Shown here in pieces: positions 3,960-20,563 of a stretch of 64,000 nucleotides of DNA. How positions within the stretch are numbered: the first letter of the stretch is position 1; every line of letters starts with the position of its first letter. Origin of the DNA: Dissulfurimicrobium hydrothermale (GTDB taxonomy: Bacteria; Desulfobacterota; Dissulfuribacteria; Dissulfuribacterales; Sh68); the NCBI RefSeq assembly GCF_022026155.1, contig NZ_CP085041.1, positions 156,306 through 220,305 on the forward strand. Reading direction: 5' to 3'. Under the pieces are notes generated by a model. That model made no database searches and was not told the origin of the DNA. It saw only the letters and a program-made list of their open reading frames with translations. Both the position numbers and the translations under genes were made by a program.

Positions 3960-4016
3960 TTTGCCGGGTATTATTTATAAAATATAGTGCAGCGCATAAA
4001 AAATAACAACAAACAA

Positions 4017-4565
4017 ATGGTTGCCATGGTCCCTCATCTGATATGGTTTACCGGGCTGAGCGGTGCAGGGAAGTCTACTCTTTCCAGCCTTTTTTGCGAA
4101 AAGCTTAAAAAATTAAACCATCATTTTTATCTCCTCGACGGCGACATAATCCGCAAGGGGCTTTGCAAAGACCTCGGTTTTTCAGACTCTCACAGGACGG
4201 AAAACATTAGACGGGTGGCAGAGGTCTCAGCTATCCTGCTCGATGCCGGCCTTTTTGTAATCGCCGCCTTTATTGCGCCCCTTGAGGCGGAAAGACTCTT
4301 GGCCAGAGGGATCGTCGCTGCAAAGGGTTATCAATTTATAGAGGTTTATGTAAAGGCCTCGCTTGAGACATGCGAAAAGAGAGACCCGAAGGGCCTCTAT
4401 AAAAAGGCCAGGCAGGGCCTTATTAAAAATTTTACAGGGATTGACTCACTTTATGAAATACCACAAAACCCCGATATAATCCTTGACACAGAGCGGGATT
4501 CGAAAGATGAATGCATTATGAGGTTGATGGATTTTCTTAAAGAAAAGGGGCTTATAACGACATGA
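4017..4565 (+). CDS. cysC: Adenylylsulfate (APS) kinase
   Basis: The enzyme phosphorylates APS with ATP to give PAPS, the donor used by sulfotransferases. The protein shows the P-loop (WFTGLSGAGKST), the LLDGD-IIRKGL motif, LGFSDSHRTENIRRVAEV (APS-binding and lid region), the IAAFIAP segment and DPKGLYKKAR. All are hallmarks of CysC. About 183 residues from the Met at 4017 is the normal single-domain length; a GTG at 3987 is an alternative start but adds only a polar tail, and neither has a strong ribosome site. It is the first gene of the polysaccharide operon. A dissimilatory sulfur bacterium uses APS rather than PAPS for energy, so this gene most likely supplies PAPS to the sulfotransferase at 12453-14156. 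Confidence 0.93.
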   Translation: MVAMVPHLIWFTGLSGAGKSTLSSLFCEKLKKLNHHFYLLDGDIIRKGLCKDLGFSDSHRTENIRRVAEVSAILLDAGLFVIAAFIAPLEAERLLARGIVAAKGYQFIEVYVKASLETCEKRDPKGLYKKARQGLIKNFTGIDSLYEIPQNPDIILDTERDSKDECIMRLMDFLKEKGLITT

Positions 4566-4632: not shown

Positions 4633-5433
4633 ATGATCTCTGTCGGGATGCTTCGGGATGTCTGGGCCTTTCGCGGTTTTATCGCGGCAAGCGTCAAGCG
4701 CGAGTTCCATACAAGGTACCGCAACACCCAGTTCGGCTTTCTGTGGACCATAATCCAGCCGCTTTCCATGATCACCATATACACGCTGGTGTTCGCCGAG
4801 ATCATGAAGCCGTCCCTGCCAGGCCACGACTCCAGATTCGCCTACAGCATATATCTCTGCGCAGGGGTCCTGACCTGGGGTTTTTTCAGCGAACTCCTGG
4901 GCCGCTCTGTGGGCATATTCGTGCAGAATGCGAACCTCTTGAAAAAGATCAGTTTCCCCAAGCTCTGCCTGCCGCTTATCCTGACCTTCTCAAGCCTTAT
5001 AAATTACGCGATCGTAATGGCCATCTTTATCGCCTTTCTCGTCGTCAGCGGCAATTTCCCGGGCCTGCCAGTCGTGGCGGCCATCCCTGTCATAGCCATC
5101 CTTGTCGCTTTTGGCATAGGGCTTGGCATTCTTCTAGGCACCATAAACGTATTTTACAGGGATGTGGAGCAGACTATGGGGATCGTCCTGCAATTCTGGT
5201 TCTGGCTGACGCCGATCGTGTATGCAAACAAGACGCTGCCTCCCTTCGCAGCCGCATTCCTGAAGTGGAACCCGATGTGGTCTTTGATAAACGCCATGCA
5301 CACGATATTTCTCGACGGGCGTTTCCCTGACTGGGCCAGCCTTATCTATCCCGGGGTCCTTTCGATTGGTCTGGTTTATCTGGGTATGTTCGCATTCTGG
5401 AGGCTCAGCGGCGAGATCGTGGATGAGTTATAA
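4633..5433 (+). CDS. Polysaccharide ABC exporter, permease subunit (Wzm/KpsM-like)
   Basis: This 266-residue ABC-2-type membrane protein has an amphipathic N-terminus (VKREFHTRYRNTQFGFLW), then about six membrane segments, and the typical QFWFWLTPIVY segment of O-antigen and teichoic-acid exporters. With the Wzt-like ATPase it should carry a finished, undecaprenyl-linked glycan across the inner membrane. The gene overlaps the ATPase gene by 11 bases, so the two are translationally coupled. The length matches the family (about 260-270). Whether the product is O-antigen or another glycan cannot be told from the sequence. Confidence 0.92.
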   Translation: MISVGMLRDVWAFRGFIAASVKREFHTRYRNTQFGFLWTIIQPLSMITIYTLVFAEIMKPSLPGHDSRFAYSIYLCAGVLTWGFFSELLGRSVGIFVQNANLLKKISFPKLCLPLILTFSSLINYAIVMAIFIAFLVVSGNFPGLPVVAAIPVIAILVAFGIGLGILLGTINVFYRDVEQTMGIVLQFWFWLTPIVYANKTLPPFAAAFLKWNPMWSLINAMHTIFLDGRFPDWASLIYPGVLSIGLVYLGMFAFWRLSGEIVDEL

Positions 5434-6688
5434 AATGGGCTATATTCGTGTAAACGGCATTGGCAAGGCCTATAAACGCTATCGCAAGAAATCCGGCCGT
5501 TTTTTGGAGTGGTTGGGGCTTGGCGTACATCACGAGCTCAAGTGGGTGCTTAGGGACGTGAGTTTCGAGGTGCAGCCCGGCGAGGCCGTGGGCATTGTGG
5601 GCGTAAATGGCGCTGGGAAGAGCACGTTACTTAAGATCGTTACCGGCACAGTGAAGTCTACCACCGGCACGGTTGAGGTTGGAGGTCGAGTTTCTGCCCT
5701 TTTGGAGCTGGGCATGGGGTTTCACCCTGACTTCACAGGCCGTGAGAACGTCTATATGGCTGCGCAGTTAAAGGGCATGACCCGTGACGAGGTGACGGCG
5801 AAGATGCGTGAGATCGAGGAGTTTGCGGAGATCGGAGACTACATCGATCAGCCCGTGCGTGTATATTCCAGTGGCATGCAGGTGAGGCTGGCCTTCTCTG
5901 TGGCAACATGCGTGAGGCCAGATATTCTGATCGTTGATGAGGCGCTCTCTGTGGGGGATGCCGCGTTTCAGCACAAAAGTTTTGACCGTATACGAAGCTT
6001 TAGTGACAGAGGCACTACCTTGCTTTTCGTCTCTCACAGCCCTGCCATGGTTAAAACTCTGTGCGATCGGGCTTTATTGCTTGACACCGGACTTTTGGTA
6101 AAAGACGATTCACCAGATGCCGTCCTAGATTACTACAACGCATTAATAGTGAAAGCAAAGGAGGACTTGAAGATCCGCCAAGTAGAAATGGAAACTGGGC
6201 ACAAAATAACGCGCTCCGGAAGCGGACATGCGGAAATTACCGCAGTCGAGCTATTAAACAACGGCACTGCGGTAAGAGCGGTAAGAAGCGGGGAACCGGT
6301 GACCGTTCGAGTTGGCACCAGAATCCACAAGCCTATTGAAGATCTGACCGTGGGAATACTCTTTCGAGATCGTTTGGGTAATGACGTCTTCGGGACCAAC
6401 ACCTTTCATCATGGTTGTTCCCCGAAATGGCCTCCCGTAAACCAGCAAATTTGGGTGGACTTTCAAATCCCTCAGCTTTTATTTGGAACAGGAAGTTACA
6501 GTCTAACAGTTGCCCTTCATAAAAGCCACAGCCATGTTTCAGGAAATTACGACTGGTGGGATAGAGCCTTAGTGTTTCAGGTAGTACCTGGAGATCATCC
6601 ATTAGGCATAGGTGTCTGTAACCTACCCATTTGTATTAAATGGCATGAGCCTTCACATTCTGATCCCGGGAGCAAAGGCAATGGCTGA
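5423..6688 (+). CDS. Polysaccharide ABC exporter ATPase with glycan-binding C-domain (Wzt-like)
   Basis: The start ATG at 5423 lies inside the end of the permease gene, giving about 421 residues. The nucleotide-binding domain (about residues 1-245) has Walker A GVNGAGKST, signature YSSGMQVRLAF, Walker B ILIVDEAL and the switch histidine in LLFVSHS. About residues 270-400 form a Wzt-type C-terminal beta-sandwich (DLTVGILFRDRLGNDVFGTNT, then LLFGTGSYSLTVAL). In E. coli O9a/O8 this domain recognises the modified non-reducing end of the glycan and gates export. A homologous domain occurs on the sulfotransferase in the same operon, which suggests that both read related glycan structures. It overlaps the next gene by 8 bases. 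Confidence 0.92.
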   Translation: MSYKMGYIRVNGIGKAYKRYRKKSGRFLEWLGLGVHHELKWVLRDVSFEVQPGEAVGIVGVNGAGKSTLLKIVTGTVKSTTGTVEVGGRVSALLELGMGFHPDFTGRENVYMAAQLKGMTRDEVTAKMREIEEFAEIGDYIDQPVRVYSSGMQVRLAFSVATCVRPDILIVDEALSVGDAAFQHKSFDRIRSFSDRGTTLLFVSHSPAMVKTLCDRALLLDTGLLVKDDSPDAVLDYYNALIVKAKEDLKIRQVEMETGHKITRSGSGHAEITAVELLNNGTAVRAVRSGEPVTVRVGTRIHKPIEDLTVGILFRDRLGNDVFGTNTFHHGCSPKWPPVNQQIWVDFQIPQLLFGTGSYSLTVALHKSHSHVSGNYDWWDRALVFQVVPGDHPLGIGVCNLPICIKWHEPSHSDPGSKGNG

Positions 6689-8165
6689 CGACGCTTTTTA
6701 TTACGCCTTCGAAGAACGCCATAGAGGATCCCGAACCTTGATCAAAAGCCGCCTGTCTATCTATCTTCCTTTTGTCAATCCTCTGATGGAATTCTACAGC
6801 CGACCCTCTGCCGTCGATCTTGGATGCGGTCGAGGTGAATGGCTTGAGCTCATGGCAGAAAACGGCTTTAACGCAAAGGGAATCGATATAAACGACAGAA
6901 TGCTTGAGGTATCCCGTAGCCTCGGATTTTCAGTGGAAAAAATGGACGCCGTGGAAGCCCTCGAGGCTCTCAATGATAATTCTCAAGCCGTGGTCACAGC
7001 GTTTCATCTAGTAGAGCACCTGCCTTTCGAGACGGTCGATAAACTGGTTAAGGAAGCTCAAAGGGTCCTTGTCCCGGGGGGTATTCTCATTATTGAAACG
7101 CCCAACCCTGAAAACCTCATAGTTTCTTCCACTAATTTTTATTTGGATCCCACTCACCTGAGACCCATTCCTCCTCAGCTTTTGAGTTTTCTGGTGGAAT
7201 ATCATGGCTTTTTTAGACACAAAATCCTGCGACTCCAGCAACCCATTGACGTTCTTACGACGAAAACCACGTTATGGAATGTCTTTAGTGGAGTCAGCCC
7301 TGACTATGCCGTGGTGGCGCAAAAAGGTTCCTCCGATGCCGGTATGCTCTCTAAATTTGACTCTATCTTTGACATTAGCAAACCGGTTGGCACGAAAATA
7401 GATCAAATGGCTTTAAAATACGATGAAGACAGAACAGCCGAAAAATCACAGCTGTTGAAAGCTTTGACCGAAAAGCTTGATCAAGCAAGTAACGCAATAG
7501 CATTGTTGAGTTCGCGTTTAGCTGAGACAGAGTCCCGCTTGCAGCGTGCAGAGGATGATGTAAAGGCTGCAAGGGAGCGTGCTGAAGCCTCCGAGAGGCG
7601 TGCTGAGGAAGCAAGTAACGCAATAGCATTGTTGAGTTCGCGTTTAGCTGAGACAGAGTCCCGCTTGCAGCGTGCAGAGGATGATGTAAAGGCTGCAAGG
7701 GAGCGTGCTGAAGCCTCCGAGAGGCGTGCTGAGATGGAAAGGGAGCGCGTCGGGCGTTTGGAGCTTGAGCTTAATGCTGTCTATAATAGCCGTTCATGGC
7801 GCGTCACAAGGCCATTGCGTCTGGTCTTCCATCAGGCAAGGCTCATCAAGGGTCAAGGATTTGCGGCGCGTACAAAGACCATTGTAAAATCCGTTGCAAA
7901 ACCGATTCTGGTCCGATCCATAACTTTCTTTGATTCTCATCCGGCCCTCCGGAGCCGTTGCATAAACTTCATCCGTAAATTTGGTCTGTATGATAACACC
8001 CGGGCCTTCTACAGGCGTTTTATGTACGGGCGGCAGGAGCCGCAGCCCGCAGCAGCACGGCCGGTTACAGATATCGAGTTGCAGCAACTCTCCCCTCGGG
8101 CGCACAGGATATATCTGCAACTCAAAGAGGCCATGGAGAGACACGGCAGGGATGATTGTCGATAG
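6681..8165 (+). CDS. Methyltransferase with long coiled coil, WbdD-like chain terminator candidate
   Basis: The ATG at 6681 follows GGGAG and overlaps the Wzt gene. The N-terminal class I SAM methyltransferase (about residues 35-200) shows VDLGCGRGEWLELM, GIDINDRML, AFHLVEHLPF and LVPGGILIIETPNPEN. Residues of about 250-370 are a strongly predicted coiled coil holding two copies of a 42-residue unit (SNAIALLSSRLAETESRLQR, then AEDDVKAARERAEASERRAE). The C-terminal part has an NSRSWRVTRPLR segment, then basic helices that may dock on the membrane. In E. coli, WbdD (methyltransferase plus coiled coil) caps the glycan, and the coil length sets chain length. Here a kinase domain is not evident, so the match is to architecture and context, not to the whole protein. 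Confidence 0.8.
   Translation: MADDAFYYAFEERHRGSRTLIKSRLSIYLPFVNPLMEFYSRPSAVDLGCGRGEWLELMAENGFNAKGIDINDRMLEVSRSLGFSVEKMDAVEALEALNDNSQAVVTAFHLVEHLPFETVDKLVKEAQRVLVPGGILIIETPNPENLIVSSTNFYLDPTHLRPIPPQLLSFLVEYHGFFRHKILRLQQPIDVLTTKTTLWNVFSGVSPDYAVVAQKGSSDAGMLSKFDSIFDISKPVGTKIDQMALKYDEDRTAEKSQLLKALTEKLDQASNAIALLSSRLAETESRLQRAEDDVKAARERAEASERRAEEASNAIALLSSRLAETESRLQRAEDDVKAARERAEASERRAEMERERVGRLELELNAVYNSRSWRVTRPLRLVFHQARLIKGQGFAARTKTIVKSVAKPILVRSITFFDSHPALRSRCINFIRKFGLYDNTRAFYRRFMYGRQEPQPAAARPVTDIELQQLSPRAHRIYLQLKEAMERHGRDDCR
7483..7733 (+). repeat. Near-exact 126-bp tandem duplication inside the coiled coil
   Basis: Bases 7483-7607 and 7609-7733 are identical over 125 positions; the units lie in frame with a period of 126 bases (42 codons, six heptads). 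The two copies differ only at their last triplet (GAA versus ATG after GAG). Perfect DNA identity implies a recent duplication or active gene conversion. It lengthens the coiled coil of the WbdD-like methyltransferase by a whole number of heptads. Confidence 0.95.
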
Positions 8166-8260: not shown

Positions 8261-11200
8261 ATGCGCATCGTTCTTGACATGCAAGGGGCGCAGACTGAAA
8301 GCCGTTTTCGCGGCATCGGCCGCTATACCATGTCGCTTGCCAAGGCCATTGCGCGCAATCGGGGAGAACATGAAATCATCCTTGCCTTAAGCGGTCTGTT
8401 TCCCGAGACCATTGAGCCCATCCGGGCGGAATTCGACGGGCTTCTTCCGCAAGAGAATATCCGCGTCTGGCAGGCACCCGGCCCGGTACAGGAATGTCAG
8501 CCCGGAAATGAGTGGCGCCGTAAGGTGGCCGAGCACATTCGCGAGGCCTTTCTTGCAAGCCTCAGGCCTGATATCATCCATGTCTTCAGTCTGTTCGAGG
8601 GCTATGTGGACGATGCGGTGACCAGCATCGGCCTATTCGACAGCGACACCCCTGTGAGCGTAACCCTCTATGATTTGATTCCCTTGCTGCATGCCGGCCT
8701 TTATCTGGATCCCAATCCGCTTTATAAGGCATATTACATGCGAAAGCTCGAGCATCTGAAGAAGGCCTCCCTTCTTCTTGCCATATCAGAGTCTTCGCGC
8801 AAAGAGGCTATAGAGCATTTGGGATTCCCTGAAGATGCGGTGGTAGATGTATCTACAGCGGTTGATGAATGTTTCCGGCCTTTGGCTCTAAGCAAAGAAG
8901 AGGAGGAGAGGATTCGACGGAAATTCGGTATCCTGAAGCCCTTTGTGCTCTATACCGGTGGCATTGACCACCGCAAGAACATCGAAGGACTGATCCGCGC
9001 CTATGCCGGGCTTTCTGAGAAATTGAGAGACGGTTATCAGCTTGTCATGGCCGGCAAGATGCCGGAAGGAGAAAGGCGAAGGCTCTTGGCCCTTGCACAA
9101 CAGTATGGGCTTAAGTCGAATGAAATAATCTTTACGGGCTATGTGAGCGACGAAGATCTTGTCCGTCTTTATAATTTGTGCACCGTATTTGTTTTTCCTT
9201 CGCTTCACGAAGGTTTTGGTCTGCCGGCGCTTGAGGCCATGGCCTGCGGCGCGGCAGTGATTGGCTCGAATACCACAAGCATTCCAGAAGTGATTGGCCG
9301 GGAAGATGCCCTGTTTGACCCGCACAAGGACGATGCAATCGCCGAGAAGCTCGAGCTGGTGCTTACTGACGAGGACTTTCGAAGGGAATTGCAGCACCAC
9401 GGCATTGAGCAGGCAAAGAGGTTTTCATGGGATGAGTCGGCAAGGTGGGCAATTGCCGCCTTTGAGGCCTTTTATGCCAAGAAAGCAGATCAACCGGTGC
9501 TTGTCAAACCTGCCCGCCGTCCCAAATTGGCTTATATCTCGCCACTTCCGCCGGAAAGAAGCGGCATCAGTGACTACAGCGCAGAGCTCCTCCCCGAGCT
9601 TGCCAAGTATTATGACATTGAAGTGATTGTAGCGCAGAAGGATGTTTCTGACCCATGGATTAAGGCCAACTGCCCGGTGCGCAGCGTAGAATGGTTCCGG
9701 CAGAACGCATGGAGCTATGACCGCGTGCTCTATCACTTTGGTAATAGCCCTTTTCATACCCACATGTTTGATCTGTTGCAGCCCTATCCAGGCGTGGTTG
9801 TCCTGCACGACTTTTTTCTGAGCAGCGTACTGGCTCATGAAGAAATGACAGGGGCCATACCCGGGATGTGGACACGTGCCCTGTATCAGTCGCACGGTTA
9901 CAATGCTGTTCAGATGCGCTTTTCTAAAAATGGGATTGAACAAGCAAAATTGCGCTACCCTTGCAATCTTCAGGTACTGCAGAACGCTCTTGGGATAATA
10001 GTGCACTCCGATTACTCTAAGCGATTGGCGAAAAAATGGTATGGTGAGAACGCCGCCTGTGACTGGGTTGTTATTCCGCTCCTGCGCGTCCCTGCGCCCG
10101 ATGCGGATCGCCTCAAGGCGCGCGGGCAGTTAGGTCTTGCCCATGACGCATTTCTAGTGTGCAGCTTTGGCATGCTCGATCCGACCAAATTGAACCATCG
10201 TCTCCTTCAGGCATGGCTTGCCTCATCCCTGTCCAAAGATGGGCGCTGCAACCTGGTGTTCGTGGGCCAAAATCACGGCGGTGACTACGGGGCCCAGCTT
10301 TTAAAGACCATAAAAAAAAGCGGCCTTGAAAGGCGTATCCGCATTACGGGTTGGGCAGACGCCGATACCTTCCGCCGGTATCTACAGGCGGCGGATGTGG
10401 CTGTGCAACTGCGCACGCTCTCCCGCGGAGAAACATCAGGGACGGTGTTGGACTGCATGAATCACGGGCTTGCCACCATCGTCAATGCCCACGGCAGCAT
10501 GGCGGAATTGCCGAAGGATGCGGTATGGATGCTACCCGATGAATTTGAAGAAAAAGAACTTGTTCAGGCGCTCGAAACGCTGTGGAAGGATGATGACCTG
10601 CGGCGGTCGCTGGGGCAAAAGGCAAAGGAGATCATTTTAACCCGCCATAGTCCTTCAGGATGCGCCAGACAGTATTTCGAGGCAATAGAAAACTTTTATG
10701 CCAGGTCGCAAACTGAAATCTGTAATTTAGTCAAGGCTATTGCGACCGTTGATGGACATCATCCAACAAGAGATGAATTGGCTGCGATTGCAACATCTAT
10801 CGCTCGATCCATTTGTGCAAAGCCCCAAATCAAGCAGATCCTGCTGGATGTCACGGCTACGGCTCGAAATGATCTCAAAACCGGCATTGAGAGGGTTGCC
10901 AGGGCCATCCTTCGAACACTTATTGAATCGCCGCCTTCGGATCATCGTATTGAGCCTGTGTATTTGACGAATGAAGGCGGTTTCTGGCACTATCGCTATG
11001 CCCGTCGCTATACGTTAGGATCTTTAGGATGTCCTCAAAACGCATTAGACGACGAGATAGTTGACCTGCAAAGTGGTGATGTGGTGCTTGGCTTGGACAT
11101 ATCAGGAGATACGCTTGTTCACGCCGGTCGTTCAGGCCTTTTTGCCCACTGCAGGGCTTCGGGGGTTAAAATATATTTTCTCGTTCATGACATATTGCCC

Positions 11201-12460
11201 ATAACCCTTCCTGGATTTTTCCCTCCTGGCGCGAATGCGCGCTTTGAAGCCTGGCTTCAGACTGTTACGTCTTGTGACGGAGCGGTTTGTGTATCAAAAG
11301 CAACGGCAGAATCACTTGTTGAATGGTTGAAAAACCTTGGCCCTCATCGCCATCGACCCTTTAGAATAGCCTGGAATCACCATGGCGCAGATATAAAGGA
11401 TTCTATCCCTTCGCGGGGGATGCCGGACAGTGCACAGCATGTACTGGAAGAACTTGCCAACCGGCCGAGTTTCCTTATGGTGGGCACCATCGAGCCTCGA
11501 AAGGGTTATCTGCAATCTCTGCAAGCGTTTACTCAATTGTGGAATAGGGGCGTTGATATCAATCTCGTCATTGTGGGTAAAGAGGGGTGGAAGGATGTCC
11601 CAGAGGCTATGCGAAGGACGATTCCTCAGATCATGCAAACCATCCGCTCCCATCCTGAACTTGGCAAGCACCTCTTTTGGCTCGAGGGCATCAGCGACGA
11701 ATATCTGGAGAAGGTCTATGCCGCCTCCACATGTTTGATCATGGCAAGCGAGGGCGAAGGCTTCGGGCTTCCGCTCATAGAATCTGCCCGCCACAAACTT
11801 CCCATCATTGCGCGGGACATTCCGGTCTTTCGAGAGGTGGCGGGTGAGCACGCCTTTTATTTCCCGAACGATAAATCGCCTGAGGTGCTGGCCCAGGCCA
11901 TAATGGAGTGGCTTGAACTTTACAAGGAAGGTAAGCATCCCAAATCCGAAGGAATGCCATACCTTACATGGAAGGAAAGCGCTCAAAACCTTCTGAATAT
12001 CATATTGAACAACAAGTGGGCCTATGAGGTCATGCCATATGGAACGATTAGGCCAGGTGTGATCTGTAATCATAAGAGCCACAGGCTGGAGTGGTCAGGG
12101 GGCTGGAGCAACCCAGAAAAGCACTTTCGCTGGACCGACGGACACGAGGCTAAACTCAGGTTTTATATAGCCCCAGAGGAGGTCACGAAATGCACAAGGT
12201 TTCGCCTGCTTCTCAATACGCTGGGAAAACAACAAATGGAAGTATGCCTAAACGACAGCCTGAGCTTTAGCGGCGTGATTGAAGGGGTCGACAGGGAACT
12301 TATTATCGAAACAGCGTCTTTTTGTTCAGGTCTCAATAGGCTTCTTTTCAGGCTGCCCAATGCCAGGCAACCGAATAATGCCGATTCGAGGATGCTCGCA
12401 ATTGCTTTGAAAGAATTCGTAATACTATCAGCACAACAAGGAGGCCGAAACAGTGAATAG
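8261..12460 (+). CDS. Trimodular GT4 glycosyltransferase
   Basis: This 1399-residue protein contains three GT-B, GT4-type domains in a row. Domain 1 (about residues 1-400) ends with EGFGLPALE near residue 317. Domain 2 (about 420-800) starts at AYISPLPPERSGISDYS and has GETSGTVLD near 722 at the matching place. Domain 3 (about 850-1240) starts at ILLDVTATARNDLKTGIERV and has EGEGFGLPLIE near 1163. The last 150 residues look like a beta-rich domain (LEWSGGWSNPEKHFRW). Multi-domain polymerases such as WbdA build repeating mannans in ABC-exported O-antigens. This one probably assembles the repeat unit exported by Wzm/Wzt. The linkage and sugar are unknown. A GGGAG site precedes the ATG. Confidence 0.9.
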   Translation: MRIVLDMQGAQTESRFRGIGRYTMSLAKAIARNRGEHEIILALSGLFPETIEPIRAEFDGLLPQENIRVWQAPGPVQECQPGNEWRRKVAEHIREAFLASLRPDIIHVFSLFEGYVDDAVTSIGLFDSDTPVSVTLYDLIPLLHAGLYLDPNPLYKAYYMRKLEHLKKASLLLAISESSRKEAIEHLGFPEDAVVDVSTAVDECFRPLALSKEEEERIRRKFGILKPFVLYTGGIDHRKNIEGLIRAYAGLSEKLRDGYQLVMAGKMPEGERRRLLALAQQYGLKSNEIIFTGYVSDEDLVRLYNLCTVFVFPSLHEGFGLPALEAMACGAAVIGSNTTSIPEVIGREDALFDPHKDDAIAEKLELVLTDEDFRRELQHHGIEQAKRFSWDESARWAIAAFEAFYAKKADQPVLVKPARRPKLAYISPLPPERSGISDYSAELLPELAKYYDIEVIVAQKDVSDPWIKANCPVRSVEWFRQNAWSYDRVLYHFGNSPFHTHMFDLLQPYPGVVVLHDFFLSSVLAHEEMTGAIPGMWTRALYQSHGYNAVQMRFSKNGIEQAKLRYPCNLQVLQNALGIIVHSDYSKRLAKKWYGENAACDWVVIPLLRVPAPDADRLKARGQLGLAHDAFLVCSFGMLDPTKLNHRLLQAWLASSLSKDGRCNLVFVGQNHGGDYGAQLLKTIKKSGLERRIRITGWADADTFRRYLQAADVAVQLRTLSRGETSGTVLDCMNHGLATIVNAHGSMAELPKDAVWMLPDEFEEKELVQALETLWKDDDLRRSLGQKAKEIILTRHSPSGCARQYFEAIENFYARSQTEICNLVKAIATVDGHHPTRDELAAIATSIARSICAKPQIKQILLDVTATARNDLKTGIERVARAILRTLIESPPSDHRIEPVYLTNEGGFWHYRYARRYTLGSLGCPQNALDDEIVDLQSGDVVLGLDISGDTLVHAGRSGLFAHCRASGVKIYFLVHDILPITLPGFFPPGANARFEAWLQTVTSCDGAVCVSKATAESLVEWLKNLGPHRHRPFRIAWNHHGADIKDSIPSRGMPDSAQHVLEELANRPSFLMVGTIEPRKGYLQSLQAFTQLWNRGVDINLVIVGKEGWKDVPEAMRRTIPQIMQTIRSHPELGKHLFWLEGISDEYLEKVYAASTCLIMASEGEGFGLPLIESARHKLPIIARDIPVFREVAGEHAFYFPNDKSPEVLAQAIMEWLELYKEGKHPKSEGMPYLTWKESAQNLLNIILNNKWAYEVMPYGTIRPGVICNHKSHRLEWSGGWSNPEKHFRWTDGHEAKLRFYIAPEEVTKCTRFRLLLNTLGKQQMEVCLNDSLSFSGVIEGVDRELIIETASFCSGLNRLLFRLPNARQPNNADSRMLAIALKEFVILSAQQGGRNSE

Positions 12461-14156
12461 AAAGTTGTTTTTTGACCACATTCCAAAGACCGCCGGAACC
12501 AGTCTGCAGCAGTTTTTTGTGGAGGCCTTCGGAAAAGAAAAGGTGACAGAAACCTTAAGGGGATTAAAGTATCAGCACGCCCTATCTGTCTATGCGAATC
12601 GACAGGTCATTACTGGCCATTTCTACTTCACTTGCGAAGAAAGCCTGCCTGAAGGGTATGTATGGGCAACGGTTTTAAGGGATCCAAGAGAGCGAACCCT
12701 TTCAGAATATTTCTATATCGTTAACGATGTGCCGGATACAGGCGGCGGGCCGATAGAACGCCGTATCAAGTCCATGTCCCTGGAGGAGGCACTTCATGAC
12801 TCAGAGTTTTGCGACCGAATTCGAAACTACCAGAGCGTTCACTTCGCATCCTTTTTTCATTCCACACCATGGCAGCTTGACAGAGCAGAGTTTTTACGCC
12901 TGGCAAAGAAAGGGCTTGAGCAATACCATCTTGTAGGCATAACCGAACGGCTGGAAGAGCTTGTGGAGGTGTTGAAGAAGGTATTCAATATTCCTGAAGA
13001 AGTTAGGCTGAAACGCTACAATGTTACATCCAGGCGGGAAAGATTCTCTGACCTGCCGTCTTCACTTCAGGCCCGCATTCTGGAACTTGTGGATGTGGAC
13101 ATGGAGCTCTGGCAGTATGCGGAGGAGCTCTTTGAAAACAAAACCAAACACTTCGATGCGAGCTCACTCCCCAGCGACTCGAAGAGCGAAGCCCAGGCCT
13201 GCAAAATGGCCTCTTCCGTTTCCAGTCCTATTGAGCCGGCTGGCATTCAGGGGGATGGATCTCTGGAGCTTTTGAGCGTGACGGTGAGCGGTCAGCTCAG
13301 GCCGCAGATGCCCACGTTTCTGCCGGGGGAGCGGGCATTCCTTCGCATAGCCTTTCGAGCCGTCAAGGATATAGACGATTTGACAGTAGGCTACAGCATC
13401 CATCATGACTCAGGGCTGCATATTTTCGGCATTAACACGCGGCTTCTGGGGAAAAAGCTTTCGGTAAAGGCAGGTGGAGAATACTACGTGGATTTTCTCT
13501 TCCCTGTAAACCTCGGGCTGGGAAAGTACTTTGTGAACATCAGCGCCCATTCCGGACTGACTCATCTGGAGCGCTGCTATCTCTGGCGGGAGAAGGTTGC
13601 CAGTTTTGACGTGAACGGTTTCGCCGATGTGCTTTTTGAAGGCCTGGTGCGACTGATGCCTTCCATGTCAGCGGGTTTGATGAGTGGAGAAGGTCGGCTT
13701 GAGTGGGAACAGACTTCGGTTCAGGGGGTGCAACGTATCGGCTATGACACGCCTCCCATATCGGACTGCAGAGGATTTATTCGCTGCATGCCGAGGATTG
13801 AGACCCTGGAACTGAGACCTGGTCAGCAGATTGCCATAACTGTGGAGGTCATGAACCAGAGTCAGCAGATCTGGTATCTCGAAGGGAACAAGCCTGTCTA
13901 TCTCAGCTATCATTGGCTGAACAAAGAGGCCGAGCCTGTAATCTTTGACGGCTTTAGAACACCGCTTCCGTGCAATGAAATTCAACCCGGGGAGCTTGTT
14001 CAGGCCACAGCAATGGTAGAAGCCCTTAAGCAGGCTGGAGAATATACCTTGGAATTGACCCTTGTGCAGGAAGGTGTTACCTGGTTTGAAGAAAGAGGGT
14101 TTGTAACGGAAAAATTAAACATTAGTATAGACCACGATAGGAGGATAAGTCAATGA
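12453..14156 (+). CDS. Sulfotransferase fused to a Wzt-like glycan-binding domain
   Basis: This is a 567-residue protein with a GTG start at 12453, chosen because AAGGAGG lies just upstream; it overlaps the glycosyltransferase by 8 bases. The N-terminal sulfotransferase domain (about residues 1-225) has the 5'-phosphosulfate loop DHIPKTAGTSLQQFF and the 3'-phosphate motif VLRDPRERTLSEYF, so the donor should be PAPS. Residues about 265-390 resemble the Wzt C-domain (DIDDLTVGYSIHHDSGLHIF, then GINT, and LGLGKYFVNISAHSGL). Residues about 430-560 form another beta-rich module (ELRPGQQIAITVEVMNQSQQ, then FEERGF). It probably sulfates the glycan at the cytoplasmic face before export. No other protein with this combination is known to me, but no database search was possible. 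Confidence 0.85.
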   Translation: MNRKLFFDHIPKTAGTSLQQFFVEAFGKEKVTETLRGLKYQHALSVYANRQVITGHFYFTCEESLPEGYVWATVLRDPRERTLSEYFYIVNDVPDTGGGPIERRIKSMSLEEALHDSEFCDRIRNYQSVHFASFFHSTPWQLDRAEFLRLAKKGLEQYHLVGITERLEELVEVLKKVFNIPEEVRLKRYNVTSRRERFSDLPSSLQARILELVDVDMELWQYAEELFENKTKHFDASSLPSDSKSEAQACKMASSVSSPIEPAGIQGDGSLELLSVTVSGQLRPQMPTFLPGERAFLRIAFRAVKDIDDLTVGYSIHHDSGLHIFGINTRLLGKKLSVKAGGEYYVDFLFPVNLGLGKYFVNISAHSGLTHLERCYLWREKVASFDVNGFADVLFEGLVRLMPSMSAGLMSGEGRLEWEQTSVQGVQRIGYDTPPISDCRGFIRCMPRIETLELRPGQQIAITVEVMNQSQQIWYLEGNKPVYLSYHWLNKEAEPVIFDGFRTPLPCNEIQPGELVQATAMVEALKQAGEYTLELTLVQEGVTWFEERGFVTEKLNISIDHDRRISQ

Positions 14157-14716
14157 ACATTCAGCATTTGGCAAAGGGCTTGGTGGTTGGAATGGTTGTG
14201 GTGGCAATGTTTGCTCTATCCGGTTGTGGAGACAGTGGCCAAAAAAAGGAAGCACAAGAAAAAGCCAGTAGTAAGGTACAACCTGCTGGTGTGTCTCAAC
14301 CTCAGGATGTGGTGAAGAAGAATCTAACCCAGTTTGAAGATCTTCTGAAAGCTACAAAGTGCTACATCGATAAAGGGCTCGATGTGAAGGAGCTTTATCC
14401 TTTGACTGCCGAAAGTGCTGATTGCCTTGATAAAGGATACGGAGGCTATGAAAGGCCCGCCCCGAACTATAACTGGACCCATCAGGACGGCTGGCTGGGC
14501 ATGTGGGGAAACAAGAATCAGATAGGTGTGGGCCTGAGCGGTTCCTTTGAGGAGATAAAACCGGTTCTTGAGAGATACAAGGCCGATGTAAGGGAGATAT
14601 TTTTTCCTTATCCGACGAAATATGAGCCTAATAAAGCAATTCCCTCTGATACCAAAGGACTGCTGCTGATGGTATTCCCAAAAGAGTTTGTGATGGGGGC
14701 CGAAGGTAAAAAGTAA
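14153..14716 (+). CDS. Lipoprotein of the polysaccharide operon
   Basis: This is a 187-residue protein. The N-terminal signal peptide ends with a lipobox (FALSGC, Cys near residue 25), followed by a Gly/Ser/Lys-rich linker. AGGAGG precedes the ATG, which overlaps the sulfotransferase stop (ATGA). The C-terminal half (about residues 65-180) has NWTHQDGWLGMWG, IGVGLSG, PVLERYK and FFPYPTKY. The same blocks appear in order at the C-terminus of the membrane protein encoded at 18467-20563. The family is not one I can name. A periplasmic or outer-membrane role with the exported glycan is inferred only from position and lipidation. Confidence 0.75.
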   Translation: MNIQHLAKGLVVGMVVVAMFALSGCGDSGQKKEAQEKASSKVQPAGVSQPQDVVKKNLTQFEDLLKATKCYIDKGLDVKELYPLTAESADCLDKGYGGYERPAPNYNWTHQDGWLGMWGNKNQIGVGLSGSFEEIKPVLERYKADVREIFFPYPTKYEPNKAIPSDTKGLLLMVFPKEFVMGAEGKK

Positions 14717-14882: not shown

Positions 14883-15173
14883 ATGAGCAGGTTGCACAGG
14901 AATCACGATGCGGTTTTTAAGGCCAGGGTAGCGCTTGAAGCGGTCAAACAGGAAAAAACCATCGCCCAGCTTTCAAGTGAATATGGGGTACACGCAAATC
15001 AGATAGGACAATGGAAGAAGCATCTTATCGAGGGACTCCCTACGCTTTTTTCTGATAAGAGGAAAAAATCCGAGGAAGAGGGAGAGGGGCTTAAAGACGA
15101 GCTTTACCGGCAGATAGGGCAGCTCAGTGTGGAATTGGAGTGGCTTAAAAAAAAGTCTCGACTGCTCAGTTAA
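14883..15173 (+). CDS. IS3-family transposase OrfA
   Basis: This 96-residue protein carries the HTH_Tnp_1 pattern (FKARVALEAVKQEKTIAQLS, then YGVHANQIGQWKKHLIE) and a leucine-rich C-terminal helix (LYRQIGQLSVELEWLKKKS). It binds the element ends. Its last codons contain the A8 run; slipping back one base gives a frame that reads KKVSTAQLNEKRGM straight into OrfB, the usual way IS3 elements make the OrfAB transposase. Confidence 0.92.
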   Translation: MSRLHRNHDAVFKARVALEAVKQEKTIAQLSSEYGVHANQIGQWKKHLIEGLPTLFSDKRKKSEEEGEGLKDELYRQIGQLSVELEWLKKKSRLLS

Positions 15174-15187
15174 ACGAGAAGCGGGGC

Positions 15188-16021
15188 ATGATAGAGCCGG
15201 GGCATTCCATGATACCTGTATGTCGCCAATGTGATTTGCTTGATCTATCAAGGGCGTCTTACTATTACGAGGCGAGGGAAGAAGACAGATATAACCTTGA
15301 GCTTATGAGGCTTATAGACGAGCAGTTTACAGAGACGCCGTTTTATGGGATAGCGAGGATGACGGCGTGGTTAAGGAAAGAGGGCCATGGAATAAATGGG
15401 AAGCGGACACGGCGTTTAATGCGGCTCATGGGCCTTGAGGCTATATACCCCAAGCCTCGGTTAAGTGTCAGCGATCAGGAGCATAAGAAATATCCCTATC
15501 TTTTGAGGGGGTTAACGATTATCCGTCCTGATCAGGTATGGAGCGCGGATATAACATACATAAGGCTTAGACATGGTTTTATTTATCTGGTGGCTGTTAT
15601 TGACTGGTACAGCCGGTATGTCCTGAGTTGGGAGATATCGACTGGGCTGGACAAGGAGTTTTGCATGAACGCCCTTGATCTGGCCCTTAAGATAGCCTTG
15701 CCTGAGATATTCAATACGGATCAGGGTGTCCAGTTTACAAGCATGGATTTTACCTCACGCCTTGAATCATTGGGGGTACGGGTCAGCATGGATGGCCGGG
15801 GCAGGGCGTTGGACAATGTATTTGTTGAGCGTCTCTGGAGGAGTGTTAAATATGAGGAGGTTTATCTTAACGACTATCAGGACGTAAGGGCTGCCAGGGA
15901 TGGCTTAAGACGGTATTTCGATTTTTATAATAATGAACGGCTCCATCAATCCCTCGGTTATGCAACACCGGCTGAGGTTTATAAAAAGGGGCTGCCTTTA
16001 AAACAAAGACAGGCTGCCTGA
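15188..16021 (+). CDS. IS3-family transposase OrfB (DDE integrase domain)
   Basis: This 277-residue DDE enzyme has an HTH_21-type N-terminus (RQCDLLDLSRASYYY), then the rve core with the first Asp in VWSADITYI, the second in FNTDQGVQFTS, and the Glu in NVFVERLWRSVKYEEVYL. The final DFYNNERLHQSLGYATPAEV is the family signature. All three catalytic residues are present, so the element may be active. The frame is -1 relative to OrfA. Confidence 0.94.
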   Translation: MIEPGHSMIPVCRQCDLLDLSRASYYYEAREEDRYNLELMRLIDEQFTETPFYGIARMTAWLRKEGHGINGKRTRRLMRLMGLEAIYPKPRLSVSDQEHKKYPYLLRGLTIIRPDQVWSADITYIRLRHGFIYLVAVIDWYSRYVLSWEISTGLDKEFCMNALDLALKIALPEIFNTDQGVQFTSMDFTSRLESLGVRVSMDGRGRALDNVFVERLWRSVKYEEVYLNDYQDVRAARDGLRRYFDFYNNERLHQSLGYATPAEVYKKGLPLKQRQAA

Positions 16022-16130
16022 TCCACTAAATACCCCTCGATTTTTTGTCTTGACAATGGGGAGTAGCTTACTATTAGTAAACCGTGGCAGATGTTTAAGG
16101 ACAGCAATTTTACAAAAACCTCCCTAAGAG

Positions 16131-16304
16131 ATGCTCTGTTGGGGAGATAAAGCTAAATACTCCGAGAAAGCAAGTCCTCAAGCTGCTTGTAAGATGATGT
16201 CTGAGGGACTAAAAGGGTGTGATAGTGCTCCTTTGGAGATCATTAAAACCAATCCTTACTTTAGGGGTTTCCTAAACTCCTGGACTGTGGATAGATGTAT
16301 ATAA
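16131..16304 (+). other. Unrecognised remnant ORF between IS3 and the AT-rich block
   Basis: This 57-residue frame contains DKAKYSEKASPQAACKMMSE, then GCDSAPLEIIKTNPYFRGFL. Just upstream, in another frame, MFKDSNFTKTSLRDALLG (from 16091) looks as if it belongs to the same protein, so one frameshift may have broken it. I do not recognise the family. It may be the 3' part of a gene disrupted when the insertion sequence or the AT-rich block arrived. No clear ribosome site. Confidence 0.3.
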
Positions 16305-16367
16305 ATGAGGGACTATAAATGAGGATAAAAAAGTTAAAAATTTTAGCTTAATAAGCGAAACTAGACT

Positions 16368-17327
16368 ATGGAAAACAAAAATAATCCAAAAATTGCTGTA
16401 GTTATACCCTGTTACAATGAAGAAAAAAATATTGAAGCTTGCTATAATAGCTTAGTAAATATTCTAAATCAGACAAATTGTAAATATGATTTAATCTTTG
16501 TTAACGATGGCTCCAAAGATAATACCTTAGAAAAACTTATAAATCTACACAAATCTGATTCTAATGTAAAAATAATAGACTTTTCTAGAAACTTTGGCAA
16601 AGAGATAGCTTTAAGCGCAGGGCTTGACTATGTAGATGCAGATACAGATGCTGTTATTCCTTTTGATGCCGATCTACAACATCCCCCAGAAGTTATTTTG
16701 CAGATGCTTGAAAAGTATAAAGAAGGTTACGACATAGTAAACGCTGTCAGGAGTAAAAGAGACGGTGAAACGTTTTTAAAGAAGATTACATCAAAATTAT
16801 TTTATAAGATTATAAACAAGCTTACGGATATTGAGATACCAAAAGATGTAGGAGATTTCAGACTAATCTCAAGAGATGCTCTGGAAGCTATTAAGGGTAT
16901 CAGGGAAAGAAAGCGTTTTATGAAGGGTATATTTGCATGGGTAGGATTTAAAACTGCTTCTGTATATTACGAAAGAGCCCCAAGACATTCTGGAAAGACA
17001 AAATGGAATTACATAAAATTAATAGATTTAGCAATTGAAGGTATTACTTCATTTTCAGCAGCACCCTTGAGGCTAGCCTCTTTACTTGGTCTTTTGGTTT
17101 CTTTTGTGGCTTTTTTATATGCAGTTTGGATAATTATAGCTAAATTAGCTTTTGGAAATCCGGTTAAAGGCTATCCTTCAATGATGGTAGCTATTTTGTT
17201 TCTTGGCGGAGTGCAGCTTATAACTATTGGAATAATTGGAGAATACATTGGACGAATATATGAAGAAGTAAAACAAAGGCCGCTTTATATAGTAAAAAAA
17301 GTTTATGATAGGAGTGGTAGTGAATAA
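16368..17327 (+). CDS. GT2 glycosyltransferase, dolichol-phosphate-mannose-synthase type (GtrB-like)
   Basis: This is a 319-residue protein. The GT-A domain shows VVIPCYNEEKNIEACYNSLV, FVNDGSKDNT, FSRNFGKEIALSAGLD and the metal-binding FDADLQHP, then DVGDFRLISR and RKRFMKGIFAW. Two C-terminal membrane helices (about residues 230-255 and 265-290) are typical of GtrB/DPM1-type enzymes, which charge undecaprenyl phosphate with a sugar. It heads a tightly overlapping four-gene set with a GtrA-like flippase and a large membrane protein, which together resemble O-antigen side-chain modification (Gtr) systems. The DNA is clearly AT-rich, unlike the genes on both sides. Confidence 0.9.
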   Translation: MENKNNPKIAVVIPCYNEEKNIEACYNSLVNILNQTNCKYDLIFVNDGSKDNTLEKLINLHKSDSNVKIIDFSRNFGKEIALSAGLDYVDADTDAVIPFDADLQHPPEVILQMLEKYKEGYDIVNAVRSKRDGETFLKKITSKLFYKIINKLTDIEIPKDVGDFRLISRDALEAIKGIRERKRFMKGIFAWVGFKTASVYYERAPRHSGKTKWNYIKLIDLAIEGITSFSAAPLRLASLLGLLVSFVAFLYAVWIIIAKLAFGNPVKGYPSMMVAILFLGGVQLITIGIIGEYIGRIYEEVKQRPLYIVKKVYDRSGSE

Positions 17328-18057
17328 TCAAAAGAAAAATGGCGATCTAATAAAAATAAGTGGCGACTATCACTATAAAGCATCACTATCAAAAAATAAA
17401 ATCAAAAAATTTTGGTATTATTCAAAAAAGACAGCCATAAAGAGATTTTTGCCTCCTCAAACAGGAGACAATGTCTTAGATGTTGGATGCGGTTCAGGCG
17501 TTATAACAAATTTTTTATCAGAATTAGGAGCATCTGCCATTGGCATTGATGGCAATATAGAAGCCATTAACTTTGCTAAATCTAAATTCGAAAATAGTAG
17601 ATGTCGTTTTATTTACGGGTTAGTAGATGATGATTACAAATTTGATTTATTGTTTAACAAGATATACTGTTTAGAATTAATCGAACACATATATTATAAT
17701 CAAGGTCTTAAGATGTTAAGAAATTTTTATAGAATTTTAAAACCTGGTGGGAAAGTTTTTCTTACTACACCTAATTATCGAAGCGCATGGCCATTGATAG
17801 AGTATTTGATGGATAAATTTCACCTTTCTAATCCACTGGATAAATATCAACATGTAGAACACTATGACAGAAATAAATTAAAAAAGATAATTGAAGAAGC
17901 TGGATTTCAAGTAAATCATATAAAAACTAATTGTTTAATAGCTCCTTGGTTGGCACCATTTACGTGGGGGGGGGCTTTAATGGTTGATAATTTAGAATCA
18001 AAGTTACCATACGGTGGCTCTATTTTAGTTGCTGTCTTCGAAAAAGAGAGTAAATGA
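17305..18057 (+). CDS. Class I SAM methyltransferase, UbiG-like
   Basis: This 250-residue protein (from ATG 17305; GTG codons at 17314 and 17320 are alternatives) overlaps the GT2 gene by 23 bases. Motifs are VLDVGCGSGVITNFLSELG (SAM site), GIDGNIEAI, CLELIEHIYY and LKPGGKVFLTTPN. This is the UbiG/COQ3-like fold, but the substrate is likely a sugar or lipid-linked sugar given the position between glycosyl-transfer genes. Same AT-rich composition as its neighbours. Confidence 0.85.
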   Translation: MIGVVVNNQKKNGDLIKISGDYHYKASLSKNKIKKFWYYSKKTAIKRFLPPQTGDNVLDVGCGSGVITNFLSELGASAIGIDGNIEAINFAKSKFENSRCRFIYGLVDDDYKFDLLFNKIYCLELIEHIYYNQGLKMLRNFYRILKPGGKVFLTTPNYRSAWPLIEYLMDKFHLSNPLDKYQHVEHYDRNKLKKIIEEAGFQVNHIKTNCLIAPWLAPFTWGGALMVDNLESKLPYGGSILVAVFEKESK

Positions 18058-18470
18058 CATACATAAAAACTATCCGTAATCAGGTGGTAAAGTTCCAGAT
18101 TTTTTACAAGTACTTAATTGTTAGCATAATAAATACTATCGTAGGCTATGGCATTATATTTTCTCTAATGTATATAGGCACATCTCCAGAAATCAGCAAT
18201 CTAATTGGCTACTCTATAGGCATATGCGTATCCTATGTGCTTAATAAAATTTATACATTTCAAAGCAAAGCCCATCCCAAAAAAGAATTTCCAAAATTTG
18301 TTGCTTCACTTTTGATTGCTTATGGTCTAAATTTTTTAACTTTGGTTTTTTGTGTTAGAGCAATTCATATTAATGCCTATGTCTCGCAAATTATAAGCGG
18401 TGCGGTTTATACTTTAAGCGGCTTTTTGCTTGCAAAGTATTTCGCTTTTAGAAAGGAGAGAGTTTTGTGA
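18054..18470 (+). CDS. GtrA-like membrane protein
   Basis: This 138-residue protein has four predicted membrane helices. It opens with FQIFYKYLIVSIINTIVGYG, includes SYVLNKIYTFQSK and ends with LAKYFAFRK. This is the PF04138 (GtrA) pattern, thought to move undecaprenyl-phosphate-linked sugar across the membrane. ATGA overlap with the methyltransferase and overlap of its stop with the next start (GTGA) show tight coupling. Confidence 0.88.
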   Translation: MTYIKTIRNQVVKFQIFYKYLIVSIINTIVGYGIIFSLMYIGTSPEISNLIGYSIGICVSYVLNKIYTFQSKAHPKKEFPKFVASLLIAYGLNFLTLVFCVRAIHINAYVSQIISGAVYTLSGFLLAKYFAFRKERVL

Positions 18471-20563
18471 AAAAAAATTATTATGTGTTGCTGTTATATT
18501 TTGTTTTAGCTTTATTTTTTTGGGGACTGCCAATGAAGTTTGACTTTGCTGGCAGAATTAATATAGGTGGTGATGTTGCTTTTTATTTGTGGAGTTTAAA
18601 ATGGTGGCCTTGCGCGATATCTCACGGTCTCAATCCATTTTTAACTAAAGCATTTTGGGCTCCTTTTGGTCCAAACCTTGCCTGGACTACATCTTGCCCT
18701 AGCCTAGCATTAATTATGTGGCCTATTACTGCATTGTTTGGAGTTGTATTTTCATATAATTTTGTAACTTTAATATCTTTAACACTTGCGACATACGGAA
18801 TCTATCTAATAAATAAACAACTTGGTTTAAGAGAATTAAGTTCAATATTTGGCGCTTTGGTGTTTTTCTTTTCATCTTATGTTTGGGGTCAGCTTCTTGG
18901 GCATTTAAATTTAGATATTGTATTTGTTGTAGTCTTTTTGTGTTATCTTTATGTGTTAAGATTTAAAGATTTAATTGGCAGAAAAAAATATATAGTTTTA
19001 TTTGCTTTACTGCTGGCATTTCAGTTTGGTATATCAAATGAAATTTATGCTACTTTCATTGTGTTTAGCTTTTTTGCCTTTGCTGTTTTGATAATATTGT
19101 ATGTAAAAGAAAAAGACTACAGGCAAAAACTTATAGTTACAGGCCTTGAAACAACAGCATCTATAGCTTTAAGTGTTGTTTTGCTTTTGCCATATATTTA
19201 TTATATATTGCATGGATTTGTATCGGGATCATTAAATAACAATTCTTTATATGTATCCGATCCATTAAACTATATTATACCTACACCAATAACCTGGCTT
19301 TTTGGCAATATGTTTTTACCCATTAGTTCAAAATTTTCTGGAAATTTTGCAGAAGAAGGAGCTTATCTAGGACTACCTTTGATTTTTATTATCTTTAGCT
19401 TTACATATATAGCATTTAAAAACCTGAAAAAACAAAGCAAAATGTATATCTTTATAGTTTTATTTTTCTTGATAGCAATTATCTTTAGCTTTGGACCATA
19501 CTTGAGGGTTTTAAATCATCAGATAATTCCAATGCCGTGGATTGTTTTTGCAAAATTACCTTTTCTTGAACAAGCACTGCCAACAAGGTTTACTCTTTAT
19601 GTTGATATAATTGTTTCTATTATATGTGCTTTGTGGCTTGAAAAAACACACTACAACATAAAATTTAAATTTATAATAGTTTTTTTAGCAATATTATTTC
19701 TAATACCAAATCTTAACCTATATAACGGTTCTGAAATAAAGTATCCTGAATTTATATCATCGGGCACATATAAAGATTATATAAAACCAAATGAAAATGT
19801 TATTGTCTTTCCAACTTATGCTATTGGCGGTTTTCAAGGGCCACTATGGCAGCAGAAAACAGATTTTTATTTTAATCTATCGCAAGAAATTGCTGGGCCT
19901 GTTCCTAAAGAATTAAGAAACGATGTTACTATTTCTTGGGCATTGTATAATCTTTTTTATGGTGAAACGAAACCAACACTGAATCCAAGCTCAACTTTTT
20001 CTTTTCTTAATTACCTTGCAAAATGCAATGTGAGTGCCATCTTGCTTCCAGAAAACTTTCATAATCCGATTGTCGAAAAATTGCTTGATTCGTTAGAGAG
20101 AAAACCTATCAGTGTCGGTGGGGTTAAGCTGTATCAAATAGATAGAAATTATTTAAATACTCTCATACCTAAGGCTAAAGATACATATCTAAGAGAAGCT
20201 ATTGATGTATTTACCACTCTTTTCACTTCTTCCCAAAAATTCTTATCTGACGGCGGTGATCCATCTAAACTTTTGCCTCAATATCTCGAAGAACAGGGCT
20301 ATTTAGCAAAATCCTTTGGGTACAAGACAGGTCCTGCTGTTAATTGGACAGATAATAATGGCTGGATAGGCCAGTGGGGCTGTCCTGATGGAAAGGGCAA
20401 ATGTTTTGGTGTCGGGTTGCTGGGTGACATTGATATGCTAGAGCCAATTATCGAAAGGTACAACTCTCAATCACTGCAGACATTCTTCCCATATCCAAAA
20501 CCATATGATCCGAGCGCTGCTGCAGGGTCTGGCCAATTGTTGATGATATTTAGAGCGCCATAA
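18467..20563 (+). CDS. Large membrane protein, probable glycosyl transfer, with a C-terminal soluble domain
   Basis: This 698-residue protein has roughly 11-12 predicted membrane helices in its first 420 residues, then a soluble C-terminal region. The N-terminus (FDFAGRINIGGDVAFYLWSL) and the early acidic loop resemble GT-C membrane glycosyltransferases, though I cannot name the family. It takes the place of the serotype-specific Gtr protein after gtrB- and gtrA-like genes. The last 110 residues (NWTDNNGWIGQWG, FGVGLLGD, PIIERYN, FFPYPKPYDP) match the C-terminal half of the lipoprotein at 14153-14716. This links the AT-rich block functionally to the upstream operon. Confidence 0.75.
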   Translation: MKKNYYVLLLYFVLALFFWGLPMKFDFAGRINIGGDVAFYLWSLKWWPCAISHGLNPFLTKAFWAPFGPNLAWTTSCPSLALIMWPITALFGVVFSYNFVTLISLTLATYGIYLINKQLGLRELSSIFGALVFFFSSYVWGQLLGHLNLDIVFVVVFLCYLYVLRFKDLIGRKKYIVLFALLLAFQFGISNEIYATFIVFSFFAFAVLIILYVKEKDYRQKLIVTGLETTASIALSVVLLLPYIYYILHGFVSGSLNNNSLYVSDPLNYIIPTPITWLFGNMFLPISSKFSGNFAEEGAYLGLPLIFIIFSFTYIAFKNLKKQSKMYIFIVLFFLIAIIFSFGPYLRVLNHQIIPMPWIVFAKLPFLEQALPTRFTLYVDIIVSIICALWLEKTHYNIKFKFIIVFLAILFLIPNLNLYNGSEIKYPEFISSGTYKDYIKPNENVIVFPTYAIGGFQGPLWQQKTDFYFNLSQEIAGPVPKELRNDVTISWALYNLFYGETKPTLNPSSTFSFLNYLAKCNVSAILLPENFHNPIVEKLLDSLERKPISVGGVKLYQIDRNYLNTLIPKAKDTYLREAIDVFTTLFTSSQKFLSDGGDPSKLLPQYLEEQGYLAKSFGYKTGPAVNWTDNNGWIGQWGCPDGKGKCFGVGLLGDIDMLEPIIERYNSQSLQTFFPYPKPYDPSAAAGSGQLLMIFRAP

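Follow-up and report, generated by a model that had tools for sequence, protein, structure and literature searches.

A sulfotransferase fused to a Wzt_C domain with an altered predicted cap pocket in a Wzm-Wzt glycan operon of Dissulfurimicrobium hydrothermale

Analysis of a 64,000-nucleotide stretch of the Dissulfurimicrobium hydrothermale genome (the window, contig NZ_CP085041.1) identified a protein in which a sulfotransferase is followed by a Wzt_C domain and by a third, unnamed C-terminal domain. The fusion is genuine and is encoded in one operon with a Wzm-Wzt polysaccharide exporter whose ATPase bears a Wzt_C domain of its own. As read from aligned residues, the Wzt_C domain of the sulfotransferase keeps the sugar-binding frame of its solved relative but not the methyl pocket. 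Judged by these residues and by conservation, the domain most likely serves to target the enzyme to a glycan, with a specificity that differs from that of the exporter. The features are listed in Table 1.

Table 1. Genes, domains and residues of the operon and its fusion protein, in window positions (residues in brackets: Aquifex numbering)
Feature	Position	Strand	Remarks
Adenylyl-sulfate kinase CysC	3987..4565	+	makes the sulfate donor PAPS
Wzm	4633..5433	+	membrane subunit of the polysaccharide ABC exporter
Wzt	5435..6688	+	exporter ATPase; C-terminal Wzt_C at about 6209-6622
Methyltransferase with long coiled coil	6681..8165	+	candidate capping enzyme
Three-module GT4-type glycosyltransferase	8261..12460	+	1399 aa
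Fusion protein: sulfotransferase, Wzt_C and unnamed C-terminal domain	12453..14156	+	567 aa; GTG start
Sulfotransferase domain, Sulfotransfer_2/PF03567	12462..13121	+	aa 4-223; profile match
Wzt_C/PF14524 domain	13248..13655	+	aa 266-401; profile, sequence match to solved structures, model overlay
Altered cap-pocket residues Y314 (Ile299), S315 (Leu300), N362 (Thr346), S364 (Ala348)	13392..13544	+	
Kept sugar-contact residues N328 (=Asn313), H366 (=His350), H371 (=His355), W378 (=Trp362)	13434..13586	+	
E396 in place of Val380	13638..13640	+	
C-terminal domain without Pfam family	13779..14135	+	aa about 443-560
Small predicted lipoprotein	14153..14716	+	ATGA overlap with the sulfotransferase stop

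The catalytic half of the protein was assigned using the Pfam profile Sulfotransfer_2, which matched with E 9.3e-12 and 46 bits against a cut-off of 22; the PAPS-binding motifs of the family were present as well. The 5' phosphate loop (K12, G15-T16-S17), G55-H56 and the 3' phosphate loop (R76-x-P78-x-x-R81-x-x-S84) were invariant in four homologues, G55-H56 being a possible catalytic base in this family. No ABC_tran match was found in the fusion protein using Pfam; its catalytic half is Sulfotransfer_2, and it lacks the N-terminal ABC nucleotide-binding domain of a Wzt exporter ATPase. By profile comparison the catalytic domain is distantly related to the 6-O- and 2-O-sulfotransferases that act on heparan sulfate (5T03 and 3F5F, E 3e-6 and 0.009), which have phosphate-binding motifs in common with the fusion protein but are animal enzymes and carry no Wzt_C domain.

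The second domain matched Wzt_C with E 1.5e-25 and 90.3 bits against a curated cut-off of 30.4, bearing out the earlier note, made from the sequence alone, which had proposed that a sulfotransferase here carries a Wzt-type domain. The note had placed the domain at 13257-13620, which was the right place but slightly short at both ends, and its description of the protein passed over the third domain. It had also aligned the domain by eye with the Wzt of the same operon, and the register of that alignment was right, with a local score of 109 compared to 27 +/- 4.7 for 1000 shuffled sequences (maximum 59). A six-frame search of the genome with PF14524 detected three places: the fusion protein, the operon Wzt and a further wzm-wzt pair elsewhere.

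The fold of the domain was assessed using an AlphaFold2 model of positions 13242-13664 built from its alignment with the operon Wzt domain and with three sequences of Wzt type that came from viral contigs (pLDDT 83.8, pTM 0.79). The full fusion protein modelled without an alignment reached a pLDDT of 32. The domain model superposed on the crystal structure of the Aquifex aeolicus Wzt CBD (8DKY) with Z 19.8 and 1.1 Å over 122 residues, on the Escherichia coli O9a Wzt (2R5O) with Z 16.1 and on the O12 Wzt (5HNO) with Z 15.9. The top structural matches were all Wzt CBDs (Z 15.4-19.8), and the first non-Wzt sandwich followed at Z 12.3. Because the Wzt CBDs outscored the first unrelated sandwich, the sulfotransferase domain, which was the one modelled, can be said to share the Wzt fold as opposed to that of a generic beta-sandwich, the distinction on which the earlier note had staked its claim. 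For the operon Wzt domain membership was sequence-based, the whole protein matching the Aquifex Wzt with E 5.9e-83. The Aquifex CBD was also the nearest solved relative of the sulfotransferase domain by sequence (E 5e-22, 32-33% identity over the aligned domain) and differs from it in sitting on an ATPase rather than a sulfotransferase. The O9a (2R5O) and O12 (5HNO/5HNP) domains share the fold (Z 15.4-16.1) but have 14-18% identity and are borne by ATPases. Their caps are different ones, methyl phosphate for O9a and beta-Kdo for O12.

The first 8 nt of the fusion gene are also the last of the glycosyltransferase gene, and the small lipoprotein gene that follows is probably in the same transcription unit. 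The operon Wzt matched Wzt_C with E 8.9e-35, and in the operon a long coiled coil was noted only in the product of the methyltransferase gene beside it. Within this coil a 126-nt unit (42 aa, six heptads) is tandemly duplicated at 7478-7729 with 98% identity between copies; if the coil were a molecular ruler, the duplication would have lengthened the ruler recently. The genome encodes no full APS kinase besides CysC, whose gene lies 67 nt upstream of wzm, with a terminator-like hairpin between the two genes, and ATP sulfurylase is encoded elsewhere in the genome. The APS kinase gene was not found beside the operon in the other fusion-bearing genomes. A supply of PAPS beside the exporter supports sulfation, though the hairpin and the lack of this linkage in the other genomes count against it, and the two enzymes together are consistent with PAPS-dependent sulfation of a polysaccharide, as judged from gene content. 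A segment, NWT..GW.G.WG ... FFPYP..Y.P, is common to the small lipoprotein and to the C-terminal end of a membrane protein of 698 aa (18467-20563), and no Pfam family matched either protein. An IS3-like element with two ORFs (14883-16021) follows the operon, and G+C drops to 31-33% at 16-20 kb (16001-20000), suggesting recent acquisition of that part.

Full-length homologues of the fusion protein (aa 2-560) were detected in three of the 395 genomes of the phylum searched, G148 (65% identity), G290 (48%) and G249 (49%), and the four genomes with the full fusion belong to four different families. Wzt_C was matched in the three other homologues with 71-83 bits. In all three genomes wzm and wzt lie upstream of the fusion gene, with a methyltransferase and a large glycosyltransferase gene between wzt and the fusion gene in G148 and G249 and with wzm-wzt directly adjoining it in G290. 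In a fifth case, G050, the start of the sulfotransferase and the end of the Wzt_C domain flank a run of unknown bases (an assembly gap), again after wzm-wzt. A possible sixth case in G362, a sulfotransferase beside wzt whose frame stops inside Wzt_C near the end of the contig, was not counted. Further sampling of related classes gave no additional full fusion, so that about 800 genomes of the phylum yielded four full cases. Such a rare and patchy occurrence is what one would expect of surface-polysaccharide loci. In G290 the gene that follows the fusion gene (L042:9369-11138) starts with a sulfotransferase-like loop, FLHSLFRSGSTYLFNVF, and continues into a long coiled coil; it possibly encodes a chain terminator of sulfotransferase type, an assignment that Pfam did not support.

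No relative was found in a contig collection queried with the single protein and with the alignment, or in viral contigs queried once with the fusion and once with the C-terminal domain. All annotated plasmid matches of the Wzt_C domain were ABC ATPases. Plasmid p5 of Azospirillum brasilense encodes a protein (WP_247896129.1) with the same order of Sulfotransfer_2, a Wzt_C-like domain and the C-terminal domain, surrounded by polysaccharide genes and with a Wzt on the same plasmid. It is more distant, with 25% identity to the fusion protein; its Wzt_C match (E 1.9e-4) lies below the curated cut-off and its sugar-contact residues were not evident by eye.

The C-terminal domain matched no Pfam family, and a profile of it gave chance-level matches only when compared to solved structures. 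The N_BRCA1_IG-like sandwich had no profile match in the fusion protein, and its match in the Azospirillum relative was weak (E 0.005, below the cut-off). The C-terminal domain of the fusion also ends an FkbM methyltransferase in G249, forms lipoproteins by itself and occurs four times in one G086 protein, ahead of a glycosidase-like region; it may be a second binding module. These occurrences are at L045:2404-3609, L046:618-3884, L007, L011 and L024, and they make up a domain family with no matching Pfam entry in the proteins tested.

The conservation of the Wzt_C domain was compared between sulfotransferases and exporters of the same four genomes. The sulfotransferase Wzt_C domain of D. hydrothermale was 80, 60 and 60% identical to those of G148, G290 and G249, as compared to 60, 19 and 37% for the CBD of the Wzt and 80, 64 and 70% for its NBD; between genomes the ranges were 51-80% for the sulfotransferase domain and 19-60% for the Wzt CBD. 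Over the four sulfotransferases, 60 of 135 columns (44%) were invariant in Wzt_C, 79 of 235 (34%) in the catalytic domain and 31 of 151 (21%) in the C-terminal domain, making Wzt_C the most conserved part of the fusion protein across four families. Over the four Wzts the NBD had 124 invariant columns of 240 (52%) and the CBD 11 of 140 (8%). The difference between the sulfotransferase domain and the Wzt CBD gave a Fisher P of 1.2e-12, treating columns of four related proteins as independent, and Wzt CBDs diverge fast in general. In a phylogenetic tree the sulfotransferase domains formed one clade apart from the Wzts, with support of 100/99 for the core four and 89/42 with G050 included, a join marked by the tree tool as a possible long-branch join. 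None grouped with the Wzt of its own operon. We rejected an origin of the domain by copying of the adjacent Wzt domain, as its identity is higher to the Aquifex CBD (32-33%) than to that neighbour (29%), from which the tree also separates it. Such a tree fits a single fusion event and speaks against a duplication of the adjacent domain.

The binding pocket was compared using the Aquifex CBD (8DKY, 6O14), for which residue roles are known with 3-O-methyl-mannose bound (PMC9445017). There the sugar ring is held by Asn313 and His350, while His355 connects the second sugar with the ATPase domain. The methyl pocket is made up of Leu300, Thr346, Ala348 and Trp362 and is also lined by Val380 of the partner subunit. 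We aligned 31 domains, including five sulfotransferases and 25 ABC-type Wzt domains. The equivalents of Asn313, His350 and His355 were kept in all five sulfotransferases and that of Trp362 in four, with Leu in one homologue. The cap pocket had changed: in the D. hydrothermale domain Leu300 is replaced by Ser, Thr346 by Asn, Ala348 by Ser and Val380 by Glu. Ser stood at the Leu300 position in every sulfotransferase but in a single one of the 25 ABC-type Wzt domains, a divergent case, and Glu stood at the Val380 position in all four full-length sulfotransferases. The Ile299 position was Tyr or Phe (Phe/Ser at 299/300 in G050), the Thr346 position was Asn, Asn, Asp, His and, in G050, Ser, and the Ala348 position was Ser in three and Ala in two, G050 among the latter. 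The sulfotransferase domain therefore lacks the methyl-cap pocket of the Aquifex type, which is a feature of that subtype and not of the whole family. Because the Thr346 and Ala348 positions vary among Wzts too, and G050 has Ser and Ala there, the argument for a polar pocket depends chiefly on Ser in place of Leu300 and Glu in place of Val380.

The Wzt of the operon keeps the Ile, Leu, Asn, Thr, Ala, His, His and Trp of the Aquifex pocket, with Ile replacing Val380. As these cap-binding residues are kept, this Wzt has the look of a 3-O-methyl cap reader; the gene for the coiled-coil methyltransferase adjoins. In G249 (L043:5856-7073) and G329 (L035) the Wzt domains have Cys for His350 and Gln for Thr346, and in G249 an FkbM-like protein adjoins wzt; by these residues the two Wzts would perhaps read a different cap.

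The best explanation, which we hold with modest confidence at somewhat better than even, is that a PAPS-dependent sulfotransferase is held on its glycan by the Wzt_C domain and sulfates it before capping and export. The enzyme would be a cytoplasmic polysaccharide sulfotransferase of an ABC-transporter (Wzm-Wzt) glycan pathway, with Wzt_C acting as a carbohydrate-binding module. This module would grip the lipid-linked glycan, most likely at its non-reducing end or terminal units, using the same sugar-contact residues as Wzt, and would not require, and perhaps would exclude, the methylated cap that is the predicted target of the exporter. Held on the right chain in this way, the catalytic domain would add sulfate ahead of the capping step.

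The earlier note had instead suggested that the sulfotransferase binds the same modified end as Wzt, coupling sulfation and export on the same capped chain. The common fold and family, the sugar-contact residues common to both proteins and the placement of both genes in one operon agree with this, and the shared fold and a likely role in glycan binding stand. Reading of the same end is not supported: Leu300 and Val380 are replaced in the sulfotransferases, whereas the operon Wzt retains the Leu and has a conservative Ile, and the Wzt domain changes strongly between genomes while the sulfotransferase domain changes less. As the two domains do not vary together, reading of the same end is disfavoured, and with the cap pocket turned polar in one protein and its residues kept in the other, the two probably read different chain ends or states; we consider a common end unlikely. 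The divergence of the Wzt domains weighs as well on the proposal that chains are terminated by the sulfate itself and that the domain holds the enzyme's own product end as a check of length or quality, since the Wzt domain should then be conserved along with the sulfotransferase, which it is not. In its favour, genes for terminating enzymes accompany wzm-wzt, and the terminator of Klebsiella pneumoniae O7 has a predicted CBM (PMC11231755), but the separate coiled-coil methyltransferase of the operon better fits the terminator role, making this proposal improbable.

The domain could also serve mainly in protein docking or dimerisation, forming a self-dimer or pairing with Wzt at the exporter. 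Wzt domains dimerise, and the FEGLVRLMP segment after the last sandwich strand, whose Aquifex equivalent contacts the partner, is strongly conserved and lies at the low-confidence tail of the monomer model. Docking, however, gives no clear reason for the invariant sugar-contact Asn and two His, and the Wzt domains of the four genomes are too diverged to offer a constant partner surface, so we regard it as rather doubtful, though it fares somewhat better than reading of a common end. Acquisition of the domain by recombination as a passenger without function in the sulfotransferase would match the patchy distribution of the fusion but hardly the finding that no other part of the protein is as well conserved, and we give it very little credence.

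The earlier note had named no described protein with this fusion, and in the titles and abstracts of the open-access literature we likewise found no description of Wzt_C or Wzt joined to a sulfotransferase. Mann, Kimber and Whitfield, who surveyed chain termination and the organisation of CBMs in 2019, reportedly predict new termination chemistries and may already mention sulfotransferases. A close parallel in design is the ORF6 terminator of K. pneumoniae O7, also a glycan-modifying enzyme of an ABC-transporter pathway with a CBM-like sandwich, but one that is a methyltransferase-kinase and also has GT modules and a coiled coil. The 2024 paper describing it classed the CBM as Ig-like on the strength of a model, without assigning it to Wzt_C, and knew of no such domain in other terminators (PMC11231755).

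The timing of cytoplasmic polysaccharide modification relative to export is known for only a few capped O antigens. Here one operon encodes two members of one recognition family, one borne by the exporter and one by a modifying enzyme, and their pockets differ at a handful of residues to which a crystal structure has assigned roles; two small soluble domains should therefore allow a test of which comes first, modification or export. A tentative extension of the preferred account, which we think possible rather than probable, is that the exporter's reader was taken over by the sulfotransferase and re-tuned, from sensing the presence of a methyl cap to sensing a state that is polar, uncapped or modified in another way. 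Two versions of one reader, acting on the same chain end of one polysaccharide, would then order its modification and export. The Wzt_C domain may also be a targeting module by which sulfation could be directed to a chosen polysaccharide.
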